From Pseudomonadota bacterium (lineage in GTDB: Bacteria; Pseudomonadota; Alphaproteobacteria; Micropepsales; Micropepsaceae), in the NCBI GenBank assembly GCA_018241025.1, contig JAFEEQ010000004.1, forward strand, positions 186,001 to 250,000: 64,000 nt of DNA, read 5' to 3'. A program made the position numbers and the translations under genes. Below the pieces are notes generated by a model. That model saw only the letters and a list, made by a program, of their open reading frames with translations. It had not been told where the DNA came from and searched no databases. This document shows, piece by piece, positions 28,139-36,548 of this stretch (positions are counted from its first letter, which is position 1; each line of letters starts with the position of its first letter).

Positions 28139-28265
28139 GGCTTAGGTTAGCGCGTGTCAGCAGTCTCCGGAAAGAGTGCCCCTGTCCACCGAAGCCGCGC
28201 GAAGGTGGGTTGCGGGGCCACGGCCACGGACTATTATCCGCCCGCCCCAGCCAGAACCGGACGCC

Positions 28266-28442
28266 ATGCCCATCGAAGCCCCCGAAGTGATCGAAGTCGA
28301 AGATACCCGCGTCTCCTGCCAGGGGATCGGCGGGGCGCTCGGCCACCCCAAGGTCTATCTCGAGATGGGCGACGCCGATTTCGTCGAATGCCCCTATTGC
28401 GACCGCCGCTTCGTGCTGAAGCCGGGGGCACACCGCCATTGA
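28266..28442 (+). CDS. zf-CHCC zinc-finger protein
   Basis: The 58-residue protein (MPIEAPEVIEVEDTRVSCQG) has the CHCC zinc-finger seen in mitochondrial NDUFS6 and small bacterial homologues: C in VSCQG, H in ALGHPKVYLEMG, and CPYC in VECPYCDRRFVL. Family members bind zinc and may assist assembly of complex I in alphaproteobacteria. Start at 28266; an upstream in-frame ATG gives a non-family leader. Its TGA overlaps the TTG start of polA. Confidence 0.85.
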   Translation: MPIEAPEVIEVEDTRVSCQGIGGALGHPKVYLEMGDADFVECPYCDRRFVLKPGAHRH

Positions 28443-31330
28443 GCAAGTCCGGGCTGAAGAAAGGCGATCACCTCTACCTGATCGACGGCTCGGGTTACCT
28501 GTTCCGCGCCTATCACGCCCTGCCGCCGCTCAGCCGCAAGTCTGACGGCCTGCCGGTCGGCGCCGTCAGCGGCTACTGCAACATGATGTGGAAGCTGCTC
28601 GAGGACATGAGAGGTCCGGAGCAGCCGACGCATCTCGCGGTCGTCTTCGATGCCGGCGCGATCACCTTCCGCAACAAGATCTACGACGCCTACAAGGCCA
28701 ATCGTCCGCCGCCGCCCGAAGACCTGATCCCGCAATTTCCCTTGGTGCGCGACGCCACCCGCGCCTTCGGCGTCGCCTGCGTCGAGCAGCCGGGCTTCGA
28801 GGCCGACGACCTGATCGCAACCTATGCCCGCCTCGCCCGCGAGGCCGGCGCCCGCTGCACCATCGTCTCCTCCGACAAGGACCTGATGCAGCTCGTGGTC
28901 GACGGCCAGGTCGAGCTGTTCGACACGATGAAGAACAAGCGCATCGGCTCGGCCGAGGTGATCGAGAAATTCGGCGTCCCGCCCTCCAAGGTGATCGAGG
29001 TCCAGTCGCTCGCCGGCGACAGCGTCGACAACGTCCCGGGCGTACGCGGCATCGGCATCAAAACGGCTGCGGAGCTCATCAACCAGTATGGCGACCTCGA
29101 AACGCTTCTGAAGAAAGCGAACGAGATCAAGCAGCCCAAGCGCCGCGAAACCCTGATCGAGAATGCCGAGAACGCGCGCGTCTCGAAGAAGCTCGTCACG
29201 CTCGACGACAACGCCAAACTCCCCGAGCAACCGGACAGCTTCGCGGTGGCGGAGCCCGAACCCAAGACGCTGATCGCCTTCCTGAAGGGGATGGAGTTCA
29301 ACACCATCACCAAGCGCGTCGCGGCGCATTTCGGCATCGAAGATATCGATGGCATCGCTGCGGCCGTCGAACCTTCCGCATCTGCCGCCAACCGCGTCGT
29401 CAAGACGGTCGAAAAAGATACCCCGAAGCCCGCCGCCTCCCAGATCGGCGCGGTGATGGATCGTGGCGCCATCGTCAAGGCGATCGATCTCGACGCTTAC
29501 AAAACGGTCACGACGGCCAGGGACCTCGACGCCTGGATCGCCCGGGCCCGCGATGTCGGCCATGTCTGCGTCGATACCGAAACCACCGGCCTCGACGCGA
29601 TGGTTGCCGGTCTCTGCGGCGTGTCGCTCGCGGTCGCGCCGGGTGAGGCGTGTTACATCCCCTGCGGCCACCGCAAGGGCGACGTGCTCGATCTCGGCGG
29701 CACCTCCGACATCGTGCAGATGACGGAGAAGGATGTTCTCGCCAAACTCAAGCCGCTGCTCGAAGACCCCGGCGTGCTCAAGATCGCGCAGAACCTGAAA
29801 TACGATTTCACCATCTTCGCCCAGCGCGGCATCCGCGTCGCGCCCTATGACGACACGATGTTGATCTCCTACGTCCTCGATGGCGGCCTTCACGGCCACG
29901 GCATGGACGAGCTGTCGGAACTGCATCTCAGCCACACGCCGATTTCGTTCAGCGACGTCGCCGGCAAGGGCAAGGACAAGGTCACCTTCGACTGCGTGCC
30001 GATCAAGGAGGCGACGCGCTATTCCGCCGAAGATGCCGACGTCACACTCCGCCTCTATCTCCTGCTCAAGGCTCGCCTGCCGGCGGACGGCAAGACCACG
30101 GTCTACGAAACACTGGAACGTCCGCTCGTCACCGTGCTCGCCGACATGGAGATGACCGGCATCACCATCGATCCCGATCTTCTGCGCCGCCTCTCCAACG
30201 ATTTCGCCAAGGACCAGGCGAAGATGGAGAAGGAGATTCACAAGCTCGCCGGCCAGGAATTCAACATCGGCTCACCCAAGCAGCTCGGCGACATCCTGTT
30301 CGGCAAGTTCAAGCTCGAAGGCGGCCGCAAGACCAAGACCGGCGCCTGGTCGACCGATGCCGATATTCTGGAAGACGTCGCGGCGCAGGGCCATCCTATC
30401 GCCAAGCTGGTTCTCGACTGGCGCGGCCTCGCCAAGCTGCGCGGCACCTACACCGACGCACTGCCGACCTATGTGAACGCGAAAACCGGCCGGGTGCATA
30501 CCTCCTACGCTATGGGCGCGACCTCCACCGGCCGCCTCGCCTCGACCGACCCGAACCTCCAGAACATCCCGGTCCGCACCGAGGAAGGCCGCCGCATCCG
30601 CCAGGCCTTCATCGCGCCCAAGGGCTCGAAGCTGATCAGCGCCGACTATTCGCAGATCGAACTGCGCCTGCTCGCCCACATCGCCGACATCCCGCAGCTG
30701 AAGAAAGCCTTCGCCGACGAACTCGACATCCATGCCATGACCGCATCGGAGATGTTCGGCGTGCCGATCAAGGGCATGCCGGCCGAGACCCGGCGCCGCG
30801 CCAAGGCGATCAATTTCGGCATCATCTACGGCATCTCGGCCTTCGGCCTCGCCAACCAGCTCGGCATCGGCCGCGGCGAAGCCGACGACTACATCAAGAA
30901 ATACTTCCAGCGCTTCCCCGGCATCCGCGACTATATGGAGGCAACCAAAGCCTCCGCGCGCGAGCACGGCTATGTCGAGACACTGTTCGGCCGCCGCGTC
31001 CACATCCGCGAGATCCGCTCGACCATTCCGGCGCATCGCGGCGGGGCCGAGCGCGCCGCGATCAACGCCCCGATTCAGGGCACCGCCGCCGACATCATCC
31101 GCCGTGCCATGGTCCGCATGCCCGACGCGCTCAAGGCGAAGAAGCTGAAGGCAAAGATGCTCCTGCAGGTGCACGACGAACTGATTTTCGAAGCCGTGGA
31201 CTCCGAAGTCGAAAAGACCCAGGCGATCGCGAAATCGGTGATGGAAAAGGCGTCGCTCCCCGCCGTCGCGCTCAGCGTCCCCCTCACCGTCGACGCCCGC
31301 GCCGCCCAGAACTGGGACGCCGCGCATTGA
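28439..31330 (+). CDS. polA: DNA polymerase I
   Basis: PolA fills gaps and removes RNA primers. The 963-residue protein starts at TTG 28439 (MSKSGLKKGDHLYLIDGSGY), overlapping the zf-CHCC stop; longer in-frame extension upstream is not family-like. Domains: 5'-3' exonuclease about 1-300 (VVFDAGAITFRNKIY, ADDLIATYA), 3'-5' exonuclease about 350-545 with intact DTETTGLD, NLKYD and YSAEDAD, so proofreading is retained; polymerase about 580-963 with DYSQIELR, RRAKAINFGIIYG and VHDELIFEA. Its stop overlaps lspA. Confidence 0.97.
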   Translation: MSKSGLKKGDHLYLIDGSGYLFRAYHALPPLSRKSDGLPVGAVSGYCNMMWKLLEDMRGPEQPTHLAVVFDAGAITFRNKIYDAYKANRPPPPEDLIPQFPLVRDATRAFGVACVEQPGFEADDLIATYARLAREAGARCTIVSSDKDLMQLVVDGQVELFDTMKNKRIGSAEVIEKFGVPPSKVIEVQSLAGDSVDNVPGVRGIGIKTAAELINQYGDLETLLKKANEIKQPKRRETLIENAENARVSKKLVTLDDNAKLPEQPDSFAVAEPEPKTLIAFLKGMEFNTITKRVAAHFGIEDIDGIAAAVEPSASAANRVVKTVEKDTPKPAASQIGAVMDRGAIVKAIDLDAYKTVTTARDLDAWIARARDVGHVCVDTETTGLDAMVAGLCGVSLAVAPGEACYIPCGHRKGDVLDLGGTSDIVQMTEKDVLAKLKPLLEDPGVLKIAQNLKYDFTIFAQRGIRVAPYDDTMLISYVLDGGLHGHGMDELSELHLSHTPISFSDVAGKGKDKVTFDCVPIKEATRYSAEDADVTLRLYLLLKARLPADGKTTVYETLERPLVTVLADMEMTGITIDPDLLRRLSNDFAKDQAKMEKEIHKLAGQEFNIGSPKQLGDILFGKFKLEGGRKTKTGAWSTDADILEDVAAQGHPIAKLVLDWRGLAKLRGTYTDALPTYVNAKTGRVHTSYAMGATSTGRLASTDPNLQNIPVRTEEGRRIRQAFIAPKGSKLISADYSQIELRLLAHIADIPQLKKAFADELDIHAMTASEMFGVPIKGMPAETRRRAKAINFGIIYGISAFGLANQLGIGRGEADDYIKKYFQRFPGIRDYMEATKASAREHGYVETLFGRRVHIREIRSTIPAHRGGAERAAINAPIQGTAADIIRRAMVRMPDALKAKKLKAKMLLQVHDELIFEAVDSEVEKTQAIAKSVMEKASLPAVALSVPLTVDARAAQNWDAAH

Positions 31331-31806
31331 TCACCCGCCCGCGCATTTATGCCGCCGCGGCCATCGTCGTCGCGTTCGTTCTCGACATCGCGATCAAGCG
31401 ACTCCTGCTGGCGCATGACTGGGACGGGCTGACGCTGATCCCCGGCCTGCTCGACACGCATTACGCATGGAACCGCGGTGTCTCGTTCAGCCTGTTCTGG
31501 CAGAGCGAAAGCATGGGCAGCGCGGTTCTCGCCCTGGCGCTCAGCGCCATCATTGTCGTCATCGCGGTCTGGGCCTTCCGCTCGACCAAGCCGATCCTCT
31601 CCCTCGGCCTTGGCCTCATCGTCGGCGGCGCGCTCGGCAATATCGTCGATCGCTACATCCACGGCGCGGTGTTCGACTTTCTGGTCGTGCGCCTCGGCAG
31701 CTTTCCGCTCTTCGTCTGCAACGGCGCCGATGTGTTCATCACGCTGGGGGCCATCGCCATCGCCTGGGACACGCTGTTCGAGCCCGAAACGCGTCAGTCC
31801 TCGTAG
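31327..31806 (+). CDS. lspA: Lipoprotein signal peptidase
   Basis: LspA cleaves signal peptides of prolipoproteins in the inner membrane. The 159-residue protein has four transmembrane helices and the catalytic aspartates in GNIVDRYIHGAVFDFLV and CNGADVFITLGA. It starts at TTG 31327, sharing TTGA with the polA stop, and ends 13 bases inside the convergent ASCH gene. Confidence 0.93.
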   Translation: MITRPRIYAAAAIVVAFVLDIAIKRLLLAHDWDGLTLIPGLLDTHYAWNRGVSFSLFWQSESMGSAVLALALSAIIVVIAVWAFRSTKPILSLGLGLIVGGALGNIVDRYIHGAVFDFLVVRLGSFPLFVCNGADVFITLGAIAIAWDTLFEPETRQSS

Positions 31807-32069
31807 ACGAACTCCACGAGATACACCTTCTCGCCCTTGCCATGCTTGGCGGTCTTCAACAGATCGACCACCCCGGCAAAGCCGGAGCGCCGCGCCAGCG
31901 AAGGCGTGATGTCGGACAGCGCGATTTCCCGGATCGCGGTCACGCGGATATGTCCCGGGCCAAGCGGATAAGTCCCGCCCAGCTTCACATGCGGCCGCTG
32001 CCAGATGCGCACGCTGCACGTGATCTCGCCCCGCATCACCGGCTCGCGCAGGCGCTTGGTGAACATCAT
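31794..32069 (-). CDS. ASCH-domain-like small protein
   Basis: The 91-residue protein (MMFTKRLREPVMRGEITCSV, WQRPHVKLGGTYPLGPGHIR, VTAIREIALSDITPSLARRSGFA) has the pattern of an ASCH domain, a PUA-like beta-barrel found in RNA-binding or RNA-nucleoside-hydrolysing proteins. Its 3' end overlaps the end of lspA by 13 bases on the other strand. It is the last gene of a possible minus-strand operon with the 577-residue protein and the ThiF-like gene. Confidence 0.7.
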   Translation of the reverse strand: MMFTKRLREPVMRGEITCSVRIWQRPHVKLGGTYPLGPGHIRVTAIREIALSDITPSLARRSGFAGVVDLLKTAKHGKGEKVYLVEFVYED

Positions 32070-32124: not shown

Positions 32125-33858
32125 CTAGGCGGCGATGTTCCGCAGCCCGGTTTCGGCAGTAATTCCGGCCTTGCCAAGCGTCTGCACCAGCTCGGCCATG
32201 ACCGCATCCGCGCTCGGTTTGGCGCCGCTCTGGGCCGATTGCGCGATATAGCCGGTCAGGAATCCCGGCCGGCCAAGATAGCCGAGGACGAGCTCGCGCG
32301 CCCTCGCCGACAGCTTGCCCTCGGTCAGGACGCCGCCGGTGCACAGCCGCAGGATGGTCGTCGCCTTCTCGACCGCGCTGCCGGGTTTTGCTTCGACGGC
32401 CTCGAAGATCTTCGCACGCTGCTCCAGATCGTTGGCCAGCTTGTCGAGCAGATCGCTCATCTCGGCGCGCTGGTTCTCCTGGAATCCGGAGCGGCGGACG
32501 CGCGTCTGGAGCTGTGCGAGACGCTGCAGCTTCGCCATGACCGGCGTCTTGCTGGCAAGGAAATGCGTTTCGAAGCTGGCCGCGGTCAGCACCGGCGTCA
32601 CGAAGCCCGCGAGTTGACGCTTGTTCTCCGTGCCGATGATGTTTTCCTCGATGAACAGCAGCCGTTCGAGCTTGTCGTCCGGCGTCGTCGCCGCAGCCAG
32701 GCAGCCGCCCAGCGTCTCATGCGAGATGAGCCGTTTGGAGCGCAGTGTGAATGCGGTGATCAGGTCCTCGTGGCTCAGATACTTTCCGATGCCCAGCACC
32801 ACGCGGTTGGCGATCTGGCGCAGTGTCTTGAACTCGTCGTCGAGCGATTGCGGGCACAGCCGCTTGCTGCTCTTGAACTCCGCAAGGATGCGGTTGGCGA
32901 TCGCGGTGCGGGCCTCGGGCAGCGTATCCGCCGCGAAATGCTGGGTCAGCGCGGCGAGACCGGCGCGCTCGCCGCCGCCCGGCGGCTCCTGACCGAGAAA
33001 CAGCTGCACGAGGCTCATCAGCGCCTCACCGAGATTTTCCTTGGGCCCGATAAGCTCGTGCAATGCCGCCGACCCGGCCAGCACTTCGGCAATCAGCGAA
33101 TCGATGGCGCGGAGCAGAAGCTGGCGGCCCGGCCCTTCGGCCGGCGCTTCGGCGCAGAGGCCGAGCAGGCTATAGACCTTTTCGTCCCAGTTCTTGGCGT
33201 CCTTCAGATGCCGCGCGATCGCGCCGTTCAGCAGATATTGGCCGTCGCCCTGATCCGCGAGCGACGTCGCGAGCTTTCCGAAGCCGCCGGCCTTGGTGTT
33301 GGGGAACACCTTGTTGCGTTCGTCGCGATAGACCCGGTTGAACGCCTTGGTGGTCAGCTCGTTCAGGTTCTTGACGATCTGCTGCACCGGTGCCGAAGTC
33401 GAAGATGCCTGCGCGACCGCGATCTTCTGGATGCAATGCTGCACCAGCGTGCCGGTCGCCTCAAGCTTCTCCAGCATGTCGGCGCGATGGATCAGTTCGG
33501 TGATGGTGATGCGCATCCGCGCCAGGAAATCCGCCAGCAGCCGCGTCATCGTCGCGCGTGCGTGATAGGAGTAGAGATCGTCCGGCTTGAAGCAGGGCAG
33601 GGCATGCGGCATGTCTTCCTGCGCCGGCTGCGTCTTCACCTGGTTGTGACCGTCTTCGAAGATTTTGAGCGAGAGAAAATCGCCGGTGTCCTCGTTATAG
33701 GTTTCCTTGACGACCTTGACGCCGGTCGCCTTCTCTTCGGCCATCAGGCTCTGGGCAAACTCGATCGCGGCCTCGCGGTCGCCGCGGATGTCGAGCATCT
33801 TCCAGGCGCCCTTGGCGCCGACGCGTGAGAAGACCTCATAATGGATGCTGAGTGCCAT
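32125..33858 (-). CDS. Large helical protein of unknown function
   Basis: The protein is 577 residues from the ATG of MALSIHYEVFSRVGAKGAW. I do not recognise it. It starts with a short alpha/beta segment (about 1-60) then is almost entirely helical and charged, with no signal peptide, membrane span or catalytic motif. Segments such as YSYHARATMTRLLADFLARM and ISHETLGGCLAAATTPDDKL suggest repeated helical bundles. It is probably a cytoplasmic scaffold or regulator. Gaps of 64 and 55 bases separate it from ThiF-like and ASCH genes on the same strand, so co-transcription is possible. Confidence 0.7.
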   Translation of the reverse strand: MALSIHYEVFSRVGAKGAWKMLDIRGDREAAIEFAQSLMAEEKATGVKVVKETYNEDTGDFLSLKIFEDGHNQVKTQPAQEDMPHALPCFKPDDLYSYHARATMTRLLADFLARMRITITELIHRADMLEKLEATGTLVQHCIQKIAVAQASSTSAPVQQIVKNLNELTTKAFNRVYRDERNKVFPNTKAGGFGKLATSLADQGDGQYLLNGAIARHLKDAKNWDEKVYSLLGLCAEAPAEGPGRQLLLRAIDSLIAEVLAGSAALHELIGPKENLGEALMSLVQLFLGQEPPGGGERAGLAALTQHFAADTLPEARTAIANRILAEFKSSKRLCPQSLDDEFKTLRQIANRVVLGIGKYLSHEDLITAFTLRSKRLISHETLGGCLAAATTPDDKLERLLFIEENIIGTENKRQLAGFVTPVLTAASFETHFLASKTPVMAKLQRLAQLQTRVRRSGFQENQRAEMSDLLDKLANDLEQRAKIFEAVEAKPGSAVEKATTILRLCTGGVLTEGKLSARARELVLGYLGRPGFLTGYIAQSAQSGAKPSADAVMAELVQTLGKAGITAETGLRNIAA

Positions 33859-33922: not shown

Positions 33923-34714
33923 TTAAGCAGCGGTTGCCGTCAGCGCGCGGATTGTCGGCGTCGCGCCGCACAGCGCGCAGGCCGGATCGGCTTTGAACGA
34001 TACGGTGCGGAAGCGCGTGCTTAAGGCTTCGTAAATCAGCAACTTGCCTGCCATGCTTTCGCCCGCACCGGTGATCTCCTTGATCACCTCCAGCGCCTGC
34101 AACGTGCCCATGACGCCGGCGGCCGCGCCCAGCACGCCGGTCTCCGAGCACGAAGGCGCCGTGCCGGGCGGCGGCGGCTCCGGGAACAGGCAGCGGTAGC
34201 AGGGGCAGCCGGCGATATGCGGCTTGAAGGTCGAGAGCTGGCCGTCGAACTCCGTGACCGCGGCGCTTACCAGCGTCTTCTTTGCGAAGAAGCACGCATC
34301 GTTGATCAGGAAGCGGGTGGCGAAGTTGTCCGAGCCGTCGGCGACGATGTCGTAGCCGGCGATCAGGTCGAGGACGTTACCGGCATCGATCCGGACATCG
34401 TGGCGAACGACCTCGACATGCGGATTGAGCGCGTGCGCCGCCGCGGCCGCCGATTCCGTCTTGGGCCGGCCGACATCCTCGGTCCGGTGCGCAATCTGCC
34501 GCTGCAGGTTGGACAGGCTGACGGTGTCGAAATCGGCGATCCCCAGCGTCCCCACGCCGGCGGCGGCAAGGTAGAGAATCAACGGACTGCCCAGCCCGCC
34601 GGCCCCGACCGCCAGCACCCGGGCGCGCTTCAGCCGGGCCTGGCCGGCGCCGCCAACTTCGCGCAGCACGATGTGCCTGGCATAGCGGTCTACTTCGTCG
34701 TCGCTGAGACTCAT
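33923..34714 (-). CDS. ThiF/MoeB/HesA family E1-like adenylyltransferase
   Basis: The protein of 263 residues starts MSLSDDEVDRYARHIVLREV. It has the nucleotide loop VLAVGAGGLGSPLI, D in IADFDTVSLSNLQRQ, the active-site cysteine loop APSCSETGVLG and structural zinc cysteines CPCYRC and CALC. Such enzymes adenylate the C-terminal GG of sulfur carriers (MoaD, ThiS). No rhodanese domain is present and no MoaD/ThiS partner is near, so pathway is open. Alternative start 11 codons upstream is less family-like. Confidence 0.9.
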   Translation of the reverse strand: MSLSDDEVDRYARHIVLREVGGAGQARLKRARVLAVGAGGLGSPLILYLAAAGVGTLGIADFDTVSLSNLQRQIAHRTEDVGRPKTESAAAAAHALNPHVEVVRHDVRIDAGNVLDLIAGYDIVADGSDNFATRFLINDACFFAKKTLVSAAVTEFDGQLSTFKPHIAGCPCYRCLFPEPPPPGTAPSCSETGVLGAAAGVMGTLQALEVIKEITGAGESMAGKLLIYEALSTRFRTVSFKADPACALCGATPTIRALTATAA

Positions 34715-34943
34715 GGCTGGGTCATAACCTGTTATGACGGCGGCCAAAACCGGCCCCGCGACGGTTAGACACTGTCACATTGCCACCGGTGTCATTTTAA
34801 GCCATTGAACAAAGTAATATATTTTGAGCGGATTGGTCCTATCCCTGCGTTGCTGCGGGGGGTGCCACCCACTATTTTCGCGGCGATACGGAGCGCGCCG
34901 TCACGAAGCGCGGCCCGTGGGTTTTGGCATCTCGAGGTACATC

Positions 34944-36548
34944 ATGTCGACAAACGGGGCCCACGGCCTTGAGCAACAGGGCTTTCGCAATCTGAAGGGC
35001 GTGCGCTGGAATCTGACGCCGTCCGAGCTTTATGAAATCGCGATCGCCCGCGGCGAGGGCAAGCTGGCCAAGGATGGGCCGCTCGTCGTGCTCACCGGCG
35101 AGCACACCGGCCGCTCCGCTTCCGACAAGTTCGTCGTGCGCGACGAGAACACCGACTCGCAGGTCTGGTGGGACAACAACAAGGCGATGACGCCGGCGCA
35201 TTTCGACGTGCTCTATGCCGACATGATGAAGCACGCGGAAGGCCGCGAGCTTTTCGCCAAGGATCTCTTCGGCGGCGCCGATCTCAGCCACCGCCTCCCG
35301 GTCCGCATCGTCACCGAATACGCCTGGCACTCGCTCTTCGTGCACCAGCTCCTGATCCGCCCCACGGCCGATCAGCTCAAGGGCTTCAATCCCGAATTCG
35401 CGATCATCGATCTTCCCAGCTTCGAAGCCGACCCGGCCAGACATGGCTGCGCGTCCAAGACGGTCATTGCGGTCAATTTCTCCAAGAAGCTGATCCTGAT
35501 CGGCGGAACGTCCTATGCCGGCGAGATGAAGAAGTCGGTGTTCACGATCATGAACTACCTCCTTCCGGCAAAGCGCATCATGTCGATGCACTGCTCGGCC
35601 AATGTCGGCAAGGACGGCAAGTCCGCAATCTTCTTCGGCCTTTCCGGCACCGGCAAGACGACGCTCAGCGCCGACGCCTCGCGCACCCTCGTCGGCGACG
35701 ACGAGCACGGCTGGTCCGAACACGGCGTCTTCAACATCGAAGGCGGCTGCTACGCCAAGGTGATCAAGCTCAGCCGCGAAGCCGAGCCCGAGATCTTCTC
35801 GACCACCGAACGTTTCGGCACCGTGCTCGAGAACGTCGTGATGGACGACGCGACGCGAAGCCTCGATCTCGACAGCGCGAAGTACGCGGAAAACACCCGC
35901 GCCGCCTATCCGATCGACTTCATCCCGAACGCGTCGGAAACCGGCCGCGCCGGTCATCCCAAGAACGTCATCATGCTGACGGCCGATGCCTTCGGCGTGC
36001 TGCCGCCGATCGCCAAGCTCACGCCATCGCAGGCGATGTATCACTTCCTCTCCGGCTTCACCGCCAAGGTCGCCGGTACCGAGAAGGGTCTCGGCAAGGA
36101 GCCGCAGCCCACCTTCTCCACCTGCTTCGGCGCACCGTTCATGCCGCGCCATCCGTCGGAATACGGCAACCTCCTCCGCGACCTCATCGGCCTGCATCAG
36201 GCCGATTGCTGGCTGGTCAACACCGGCTGGACCGGCGGCGCCTTCGGCGAAGGAAGCCGCATGCCGATCAAGGCGACCCGCGCGCTGCTCAACGCCGCGC
36301 TCGACGGTTCGCTGGCCAATGCCGAGATGCGCATCGATCCGCATTTCCGCTTCCGCGTGCCGGTCTCGGTGCCGGGCGTGGATACAAAGATCCTCAACCC
36401 GCGCGACACCTGGGCCGACAAATCGGCCTATGACGCGCAGGCGCGCAAGCTGGTCGCCATGTTCCGCGACAACTTCAAGAAGTTCGAAGCCCATGTCGGC
36501 AAGGACGTTCTCGAAGCCGCGCCGGTGCTGGCGGAAGCGGCGGAATAG
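34944..36548 (+). CDS. pckA: Phosphoenolpyruvate carboxykinase (ATP)
   Basis: PckA converts oxaloacetate and ATP to PEP, CO2 and ADP, the first committed step of gluconeogenesis. The 534-residue protein has the [16 protein letters not shown] region, kinase-1a P-loop [13 protein letters not shown], kinase-2 [11 protein letters not shown], the metal/substrate HCSANVG and the [15 protein letters not shown] segment. Start at ATG 34944 ([16 protein letters not shown]), giving the standard length. The roughly 230-base divergent region with the ThiF-like gene holds its promoter, which I could not delimit. Confidence 0.97.

Follow-up and report, generated by a model that had tools for sequence, protein, structure and literature searches.

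What is the function of a 577-residue protein encoded between a gene for an E1-like enzyme of the ThiF/MoeB family and an ASCH-like gene? The gene in question (the target) lies in the window, the whole stretch of 64,000 nucleotides that was analysed, where the preliminary description had placed it in a possible E1-linked modification system. Our results point elsewhere. We favour the reading that the target protein, a stand-alone form with an N-terminal domain (ND) and a helical domain (HD), is a signalling regulator whose ancestry ties it to the locus of pckA and chvI-chvG, and put the probability of this at about 0.5. The genes concerned are:

32125-33858, minus strand: target gene, ND-HD protein in its stand-alone form, 577 amino acids (open reading frame, conservation)
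33923-34747, minus strand: ThiF/MoeB-family gene (Pfam, NCBIfam), upstream of the target and adjacent to it in the window's genus only
31794-32069, minus strand: ASCH-like gene
34824-36548, plus strand: pckA (PEP carboxykinase), divergent from ThiF; locus marker, recognised from its sequence and matched at related loci
28154-31330, plus strand: polA, convergent with the target; locus marker, recognised and matched likewise

The target is a real, conserved gene. Its minus-strand reading frame opens with ATG and has the coordinates originally given for it, and the stated gaps are also correct, with 64 bases separating it from the ThiF gene and 55 from the ASCH-like gene; an alternative GTG start is possible 12 bases upstream of the ATG, and the relatives within the genus share a short Met-Ala...His start motif. 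Matches were found in 62 of 100 related genomes searched, made up of 52 of 60 from the same genus (the window's own included; mostly full length, with a broken or diverged copy only in a few) and 10 of 40 others. Rhizomicrobium electricum DSM 21034 (L110), one of the Micropepsaceae, is among the close relatives that were identified by name. The dN of about 0.16 against a dS of about 0.6, obtained with three relatives of 77-78% identity, places the gene under purifying selection. The protein is dispensable, since eight of the 60 same-genus genomes, two of them 58% and 82% complete, have no match to it. Gene copies in pieces or interrupted by stops in the same-genus genomes G018, G020 and G044 suggest ongoing loss.

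Two domains and an invariant cysteine

No family in Pfam, NCBIfam, PHROGs or PADLOC scores above cut-off against the protein, nor does any among the PDB sequences when a 25-member profile is used, which bears out the original statement that it has no recognisable motif. Judged by alignment, the protein is a member of an undescribed and unnamed two-domain family, in which ND, a beta-beta-alpha-beta-beta domain, is followed by HD, an all-helical domain (residues 88-577), and it matches the HD profile with the characteristic cysteine at the start of the domain. A literature search returned no description of the ND-HD family, a nameless sequence family being hardly findable by words. As far as our searches reach, the family is found only in Alphaproteobacteria: 97 of 289 genomes of the class contain a match, part of them through ND only, and so do all 82 genomes searched of the Azospirillum-type order; among 397 genomes drawn from the phylum there are 23 with a match, all labelled as the same class, in a draw whose number of genomes from outside the class is not shown. 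The parts of the protein are encoded as follows:

33643-33858, minus strand: ND, residues 1-72 (model, alignment), with E8, W19, A31 and A35 nearly invariant
32734-33597, minus strand: first part of HD, about residues 88-375 (positions 1 to about 288 of the HD model), kept in half-length relatives
32128-32733, minus strand: second part of HD, about residues 376-577, missing or replaced in early-ending relatives and in those with an FHA or cNMP-binding domain
33592-33594, minus strand: codon of Cys89; Cys in 93 of the 93 sequences with a letter there, of 96 non-redundant HDs
33496-33498, minus strand: codon of E121; Glu in 94 of 96
33178-33180, minus strand: codon of K227; Lys in 89 of 96, Arg in 5
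33100-33102, minus strand: codon of D253; Asp in 90 of 96, Glu in 6
32740-32742, minus strand: codon of R373; Arg in 88 of 95

An AlphaFold2 model of the whole protein, built from 25 sequences (mean pLDDT 87), predicts strands at residues 3-12 and 20-25, a helix at 28-40 and strands at 46-55 and 60-70 in the ND part (residues 1-70), falls below a pLDDT of 50 at residues 72-85 and contains helices only over residues 92-577; when folded alone from 49 sequences, ND reaches a mean pLDDT of 91.5. The earlier impressions of a mostly helical protein with a separate N-terminal alpha/beta domain are thus both confirmed, the latter also by proteins in which ND stands alone or precedes a cyclase domain or pentapeptide repeats. 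Foldseek finds no known structure for ND at E <= 0.001. PsaD of photosystem I (8wey_D) shares the beta-beta-alpha-beta-beta arrangement (VIA-align Z 6.6 over 61 residues, rmsd 3.3), yet even this best VIA-align Z is under 8, at 12% identity and a Foldseek E of 0.03. The Rubisco small subunit reaches a Z of 5.2, and the likeness of the modelled ND to PsaD may be one of common arrangement only. For HD, too, no known fold was assigned, as Foldseek returns nothing at E <= 0.001 and the best VIA-align Z, 7.1 over 89 residues, is at a level common among helical bundles.

Conservation in the family is highest at Cys89, at the start of HD. In addition to its invariance in the set of HDs that is non-redundant at 60% identity, it is Cys in 252 of 254 rows, the remaining two being one protein fetched twice in which the Cys stands two residues upstream. 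Of the ND residues, E8 and A31 are kept in 56, W19 in 55 and A35 in 54 of 58 non-redundant NDs. Five nearly invariant polar residues on different helices of so divergent a domain could conceivably form an active site, and HD would then be an enzyme or a metal or cofactor protein built around C89, E121, K227, D253 and R373, which the kinase, FHA and cNMP-binding domains of the relatives would regulate. We consider this unlikely, given that HD has no match to an enzyme family or fold.

Relatives with signalling domains

In 112 non-redundant HD proteins from outside the genus, for which start codons were set mechanically, ND is combined with a full HD in 52, with a half HD in 15, with HD and an FHA domain in 2 and with HD and a cNMP-binding domain in 1; a full HD without ND is found in 16, an HD of intermediate length in 17 (8 with ND) and an HD joined to a kinase in 9 (3 with ND). 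A Pkinase domain (Pfam) lies C-terminal to HD in all 11 long members scanned (E 2.9e-32 in L143, 5e-28 to 1e-32 in the ten others), with a zinc-ribbon-like cysteine pattern upstream of it. The glycine-rich loop, the VAIK-type lysine and the HRD and DFG motifs of these kinases are intact and, as motifs, look active. By phmmer the kinase of the HD fusions is common to 14 proteins; the HD-kinase recurs in Azospirillum-type genomes, and seven records of it with full query coverage and 65-67% identity are from chromids of named Azospirillum species. An FHA domain follows HD in L182 (Azospirillum lipoferum 4B) and L144, and a cNMP-binding domain is fused to HD in L168. ND in turn occurs apart from HD: six of ten such proteins scanned carry a class III cyclase domain (Guanylate_cyc) and one carries pentapeptide repeats, while three have no convincing Pfam domain, and ND is also found in proteins of about 130-250 amino acids. 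The idea that the middle parts of the ND-cyclases are diverged HDs was dropped, because the HD profile gives no match there.

This modularity extends to the surroundings of some genes. The ND protein with pentapeptide repeats is L147; in a clustering of 302 neighbouring reading frames from 86 loci, picked by a codon-bias rule and with possible calling errors, pentapeptide-repeat genes adjoin half- or intermediate-length ND-HD genes at eight loci, some of them closely related (L025, L170, L172, L173, L199, L201, L206 and L207). Small ND-only genes near class III cyclase genes (L158, L218) parallel the ND-cyclase fusions seen elsewhere. In Azospirillum thermophilum (L183) the ND-HD gene is three genes away from a Ser/Thr kinase gene. 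A stretch of about 100 amino acids after HD is shared by L174-L176, L203, L212 and L213 and matches no Pfam family in the two proteins scanned (L174, L176). Finally, in L033 (the same region as L110), L091 and L098 the ND-HD gene is followed immediately by another HD gene, one that lacks ND.

Like Hanks-type modular Ser/Thr kinases and FHA adaptors, the relatives thus carry a common domain, HD, fused to an HRD/DFG kinase or to an FHA domain. The target, however, has no kinase domain (Pfam) and no FHA domain, and its own genome, an assembly of 34 contigs, gives no Pkinase or FHA match at E <= 0.001. A Ser/Thr kinase partner in that genome was therefore rejected, and the link to kinases is not directly applicable to the target. 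The same genome contains two class III cyclase matches, neither with an ND in the stretches examined, and eight cNMP-binding matches.

If the target protein is a signalling regulator, presumably a cytosolic one, ND probably serves as an input domain, for docking or for ligand binding, and HD probably as a helical scaffold or switch. In the fused relatives HD would pass its state directly to the attached Ser/Thr kinase, FHA or cNMP-binding domain, and in the stand-alone form this state would be passed on by binding of a partner protein. What is new here is an undescribed domain family within a familiar kind of system; as an unnamed family that is connected to kinases, cyclases and FHA and cNMP-binding domains, it amounts to a gap in the annotation of signalling in a well-studied bacterial class.

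The pckA, chvI-chvG and polA neighbourhood

In the window pckA lies two genes from the target. Among 52 loci of close relatives, 42 of the 46 that could be tested have a polA convergent with the target, 29 of 45 have pckA nearby, and 3 of 50 contain another HD gene. Outside the genus we read 7.5-20 kb around each of 20 loci from ten families, which were picked among the better-scoring matches and include six from family f60, the family of the sampled genome that supplied the chvI and chvG query sequences. chvI-chvG are found at 10 of these loci, polA at 7 and pckA at 2, with at least one of them at 12. Where present, chvI is divergent from the HD gene, either at a distance of 130-240 bases or on the far side of pckA; pckA itself, at its two loci, lies 123 bases upstream of the HD gene on the same strand, and polA is convergent with it in 7 of 7. 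The HD gene adjoins pckA or chvI in families f4, f60, f84 and f113, and f116 has polA only.

In the tree the window protein belongs to a clade of 17 of 54 rows from seven families (support 99/96). Linkage to pckA, chvI-chvG or polA is seen at 12 of 13 non-genus loci in families of this clade, the exception being f107, versus 0 of 7 in other families (f41, f75, f142 and f160). The fusions to kinase, FHA and cNMP-binding domains are not in the clade; they are paralogues that lie on other branches of this tree, which is midpoint-rooted and weakly supported at its deep forks.

The region itself is known from other work. In Brucella, according to the available text of PMC9491525, pckA lies upstream of and opposite to the operon of bvrR, the counterpart of chvI, phosphorylated BvrR binds the intergenic region, and the synteny of the pckA-bvrR region in alphaproteobacteria is described; for Agrobacterium, the available part of PMC3687685 cites control of the adjacent pckA by ChvG-ChvI. 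Members of the target's clade lie at this ChvI-ChvG (BvrR-BvrS, ExoS-ChvI) and pckA locus either in divergent orientation to chvI or a short way downstream of pckA, but the accessible portions of both papers name no component that resembles ND-HD. The genome of the window also differs in that its closest chvI-like regulator (71% identity) is elsewhere, on contig C3, whereas the window is on C29.

The position of the HD gene in or next to the pckA-chvI intergenic region in four families suggests that it may share control with these genes. Since the target belongs to this conserved neighbourhood, its most likely role would be in regulating central carbon use together with the envelope and acid stress that the locus controls. 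The occurrence of its relatives in signalling proteins, combined with the frequent position of the gene beside an envelope- and acid-stress sensor, makes a role as signalling regulator probable, rather than one as partner of ThiF. Should the link to the locus prove functional, it would supply a part so far missing from the ChvGI/pckA circuit, a circuit of importance to symbionts and pathogens alike. A more far-reaching version, which we offer tentatively and regard as doubtful, would make ND-HD a new and widespread alphaproteobacterial signalling module with HD as a Cys89-dependent switch (redox, metal or acylation) wired to kinase, FHA, cNMP and two-component outputs; the ancestral copy would have a place in the pckA-ChvGI circuit that has gone unrecognised, perhaps with ChvI controlling it directly from a shared divergent promoter.

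But how much does gene order tell in this case? polA, which is no signalling gene, is conserved next to HD to the same degree; hence the arrangement may be passively inherited, and a kept order of genes does not of itself imply function. The target might then be a passenger, inherited vertically, co-expressed with moeB, unconnected to pckA and ChvGI and of no more than minor accessory use. In keeping with this, it has been lost without loss of its neighbours: of six same-genus genomes without the target, two (G003, G022) have their ThiF and polA matches about 40 and 90 bases apart, three about 1-1.2 kb apart and one 200 kb apart on the same contig. We nevertheless think a mere passenger improbable, in view of the purifying selection on the target and of a place in the genome that is kept across at least six families besides that of the window. 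Still less probable is an accessory protein of DNA replication or repair kept beside polA. The convergent polA genes of the close-relative loci and of 7 of the 20 loci outside the genus would fit such a function, but convergent genes are rarely coupled functionally, and the fusions are to signalling domains, with none to DNA-processing domains in the 20 plus 10 proteins scanned.

The ThiF and ASCH-like neighbours

Returning to the favoured reading of a signalling regulator, what is the part of the two immediate neighbours? ThiF lies upstream of the target on the same strand in 51 of the 51 testable among the 52 close-relative loci, and the ASCH-like gene, a weak label at 13.3 bits versus a Pfam cut-off of 21.2, adjoins it in only 5 of 50, so that conservation of the three-gene order holds for ThiF and fails for ASCH. 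The ThiF protein scores 312.5 bits versus the cut-off of 266 for the NCBIfam MoeB subfamily. Its gene is retained in all six same-genus genomes that were searched of the eight without the target, and it is found neither near the 20 loci outside the genus (E <= 1e-12, within the 7.5-20 kb read) nor at 89 further loci (E <= 1e-15). Because ThiF is kept without the target and is absent at loci outside the genus, we conclude from these comparisons that it is independent of the target and joined the locus only in the window's genus; genes for E1-like enzymes of the MoeB/ThiF type adjoin the target there, but have no link to the ND-HD family beyond it. That the ThiF enzyme activates or modifies the target, or that a small carrier docks on it, as the E1-linked system first envisaged would have it, is thus highly improbable, for although the short gaps within the genus and an invariant cysteine able to form a thioester would suit it, ThiF scores as a MoeB and is kept without the target, and Cys89 is equally invariant at the loci elsewhere that lack ThiF.

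A defence island was likewise rejected, the target having no PADLOC match and ThiF giving only partial E1 matches. In one genome of the same genus (G058, locus L031) the only family member is a diverged HD protein, encoded between the PEP carboxykinase gene and polA, and ThiF is on another contig.
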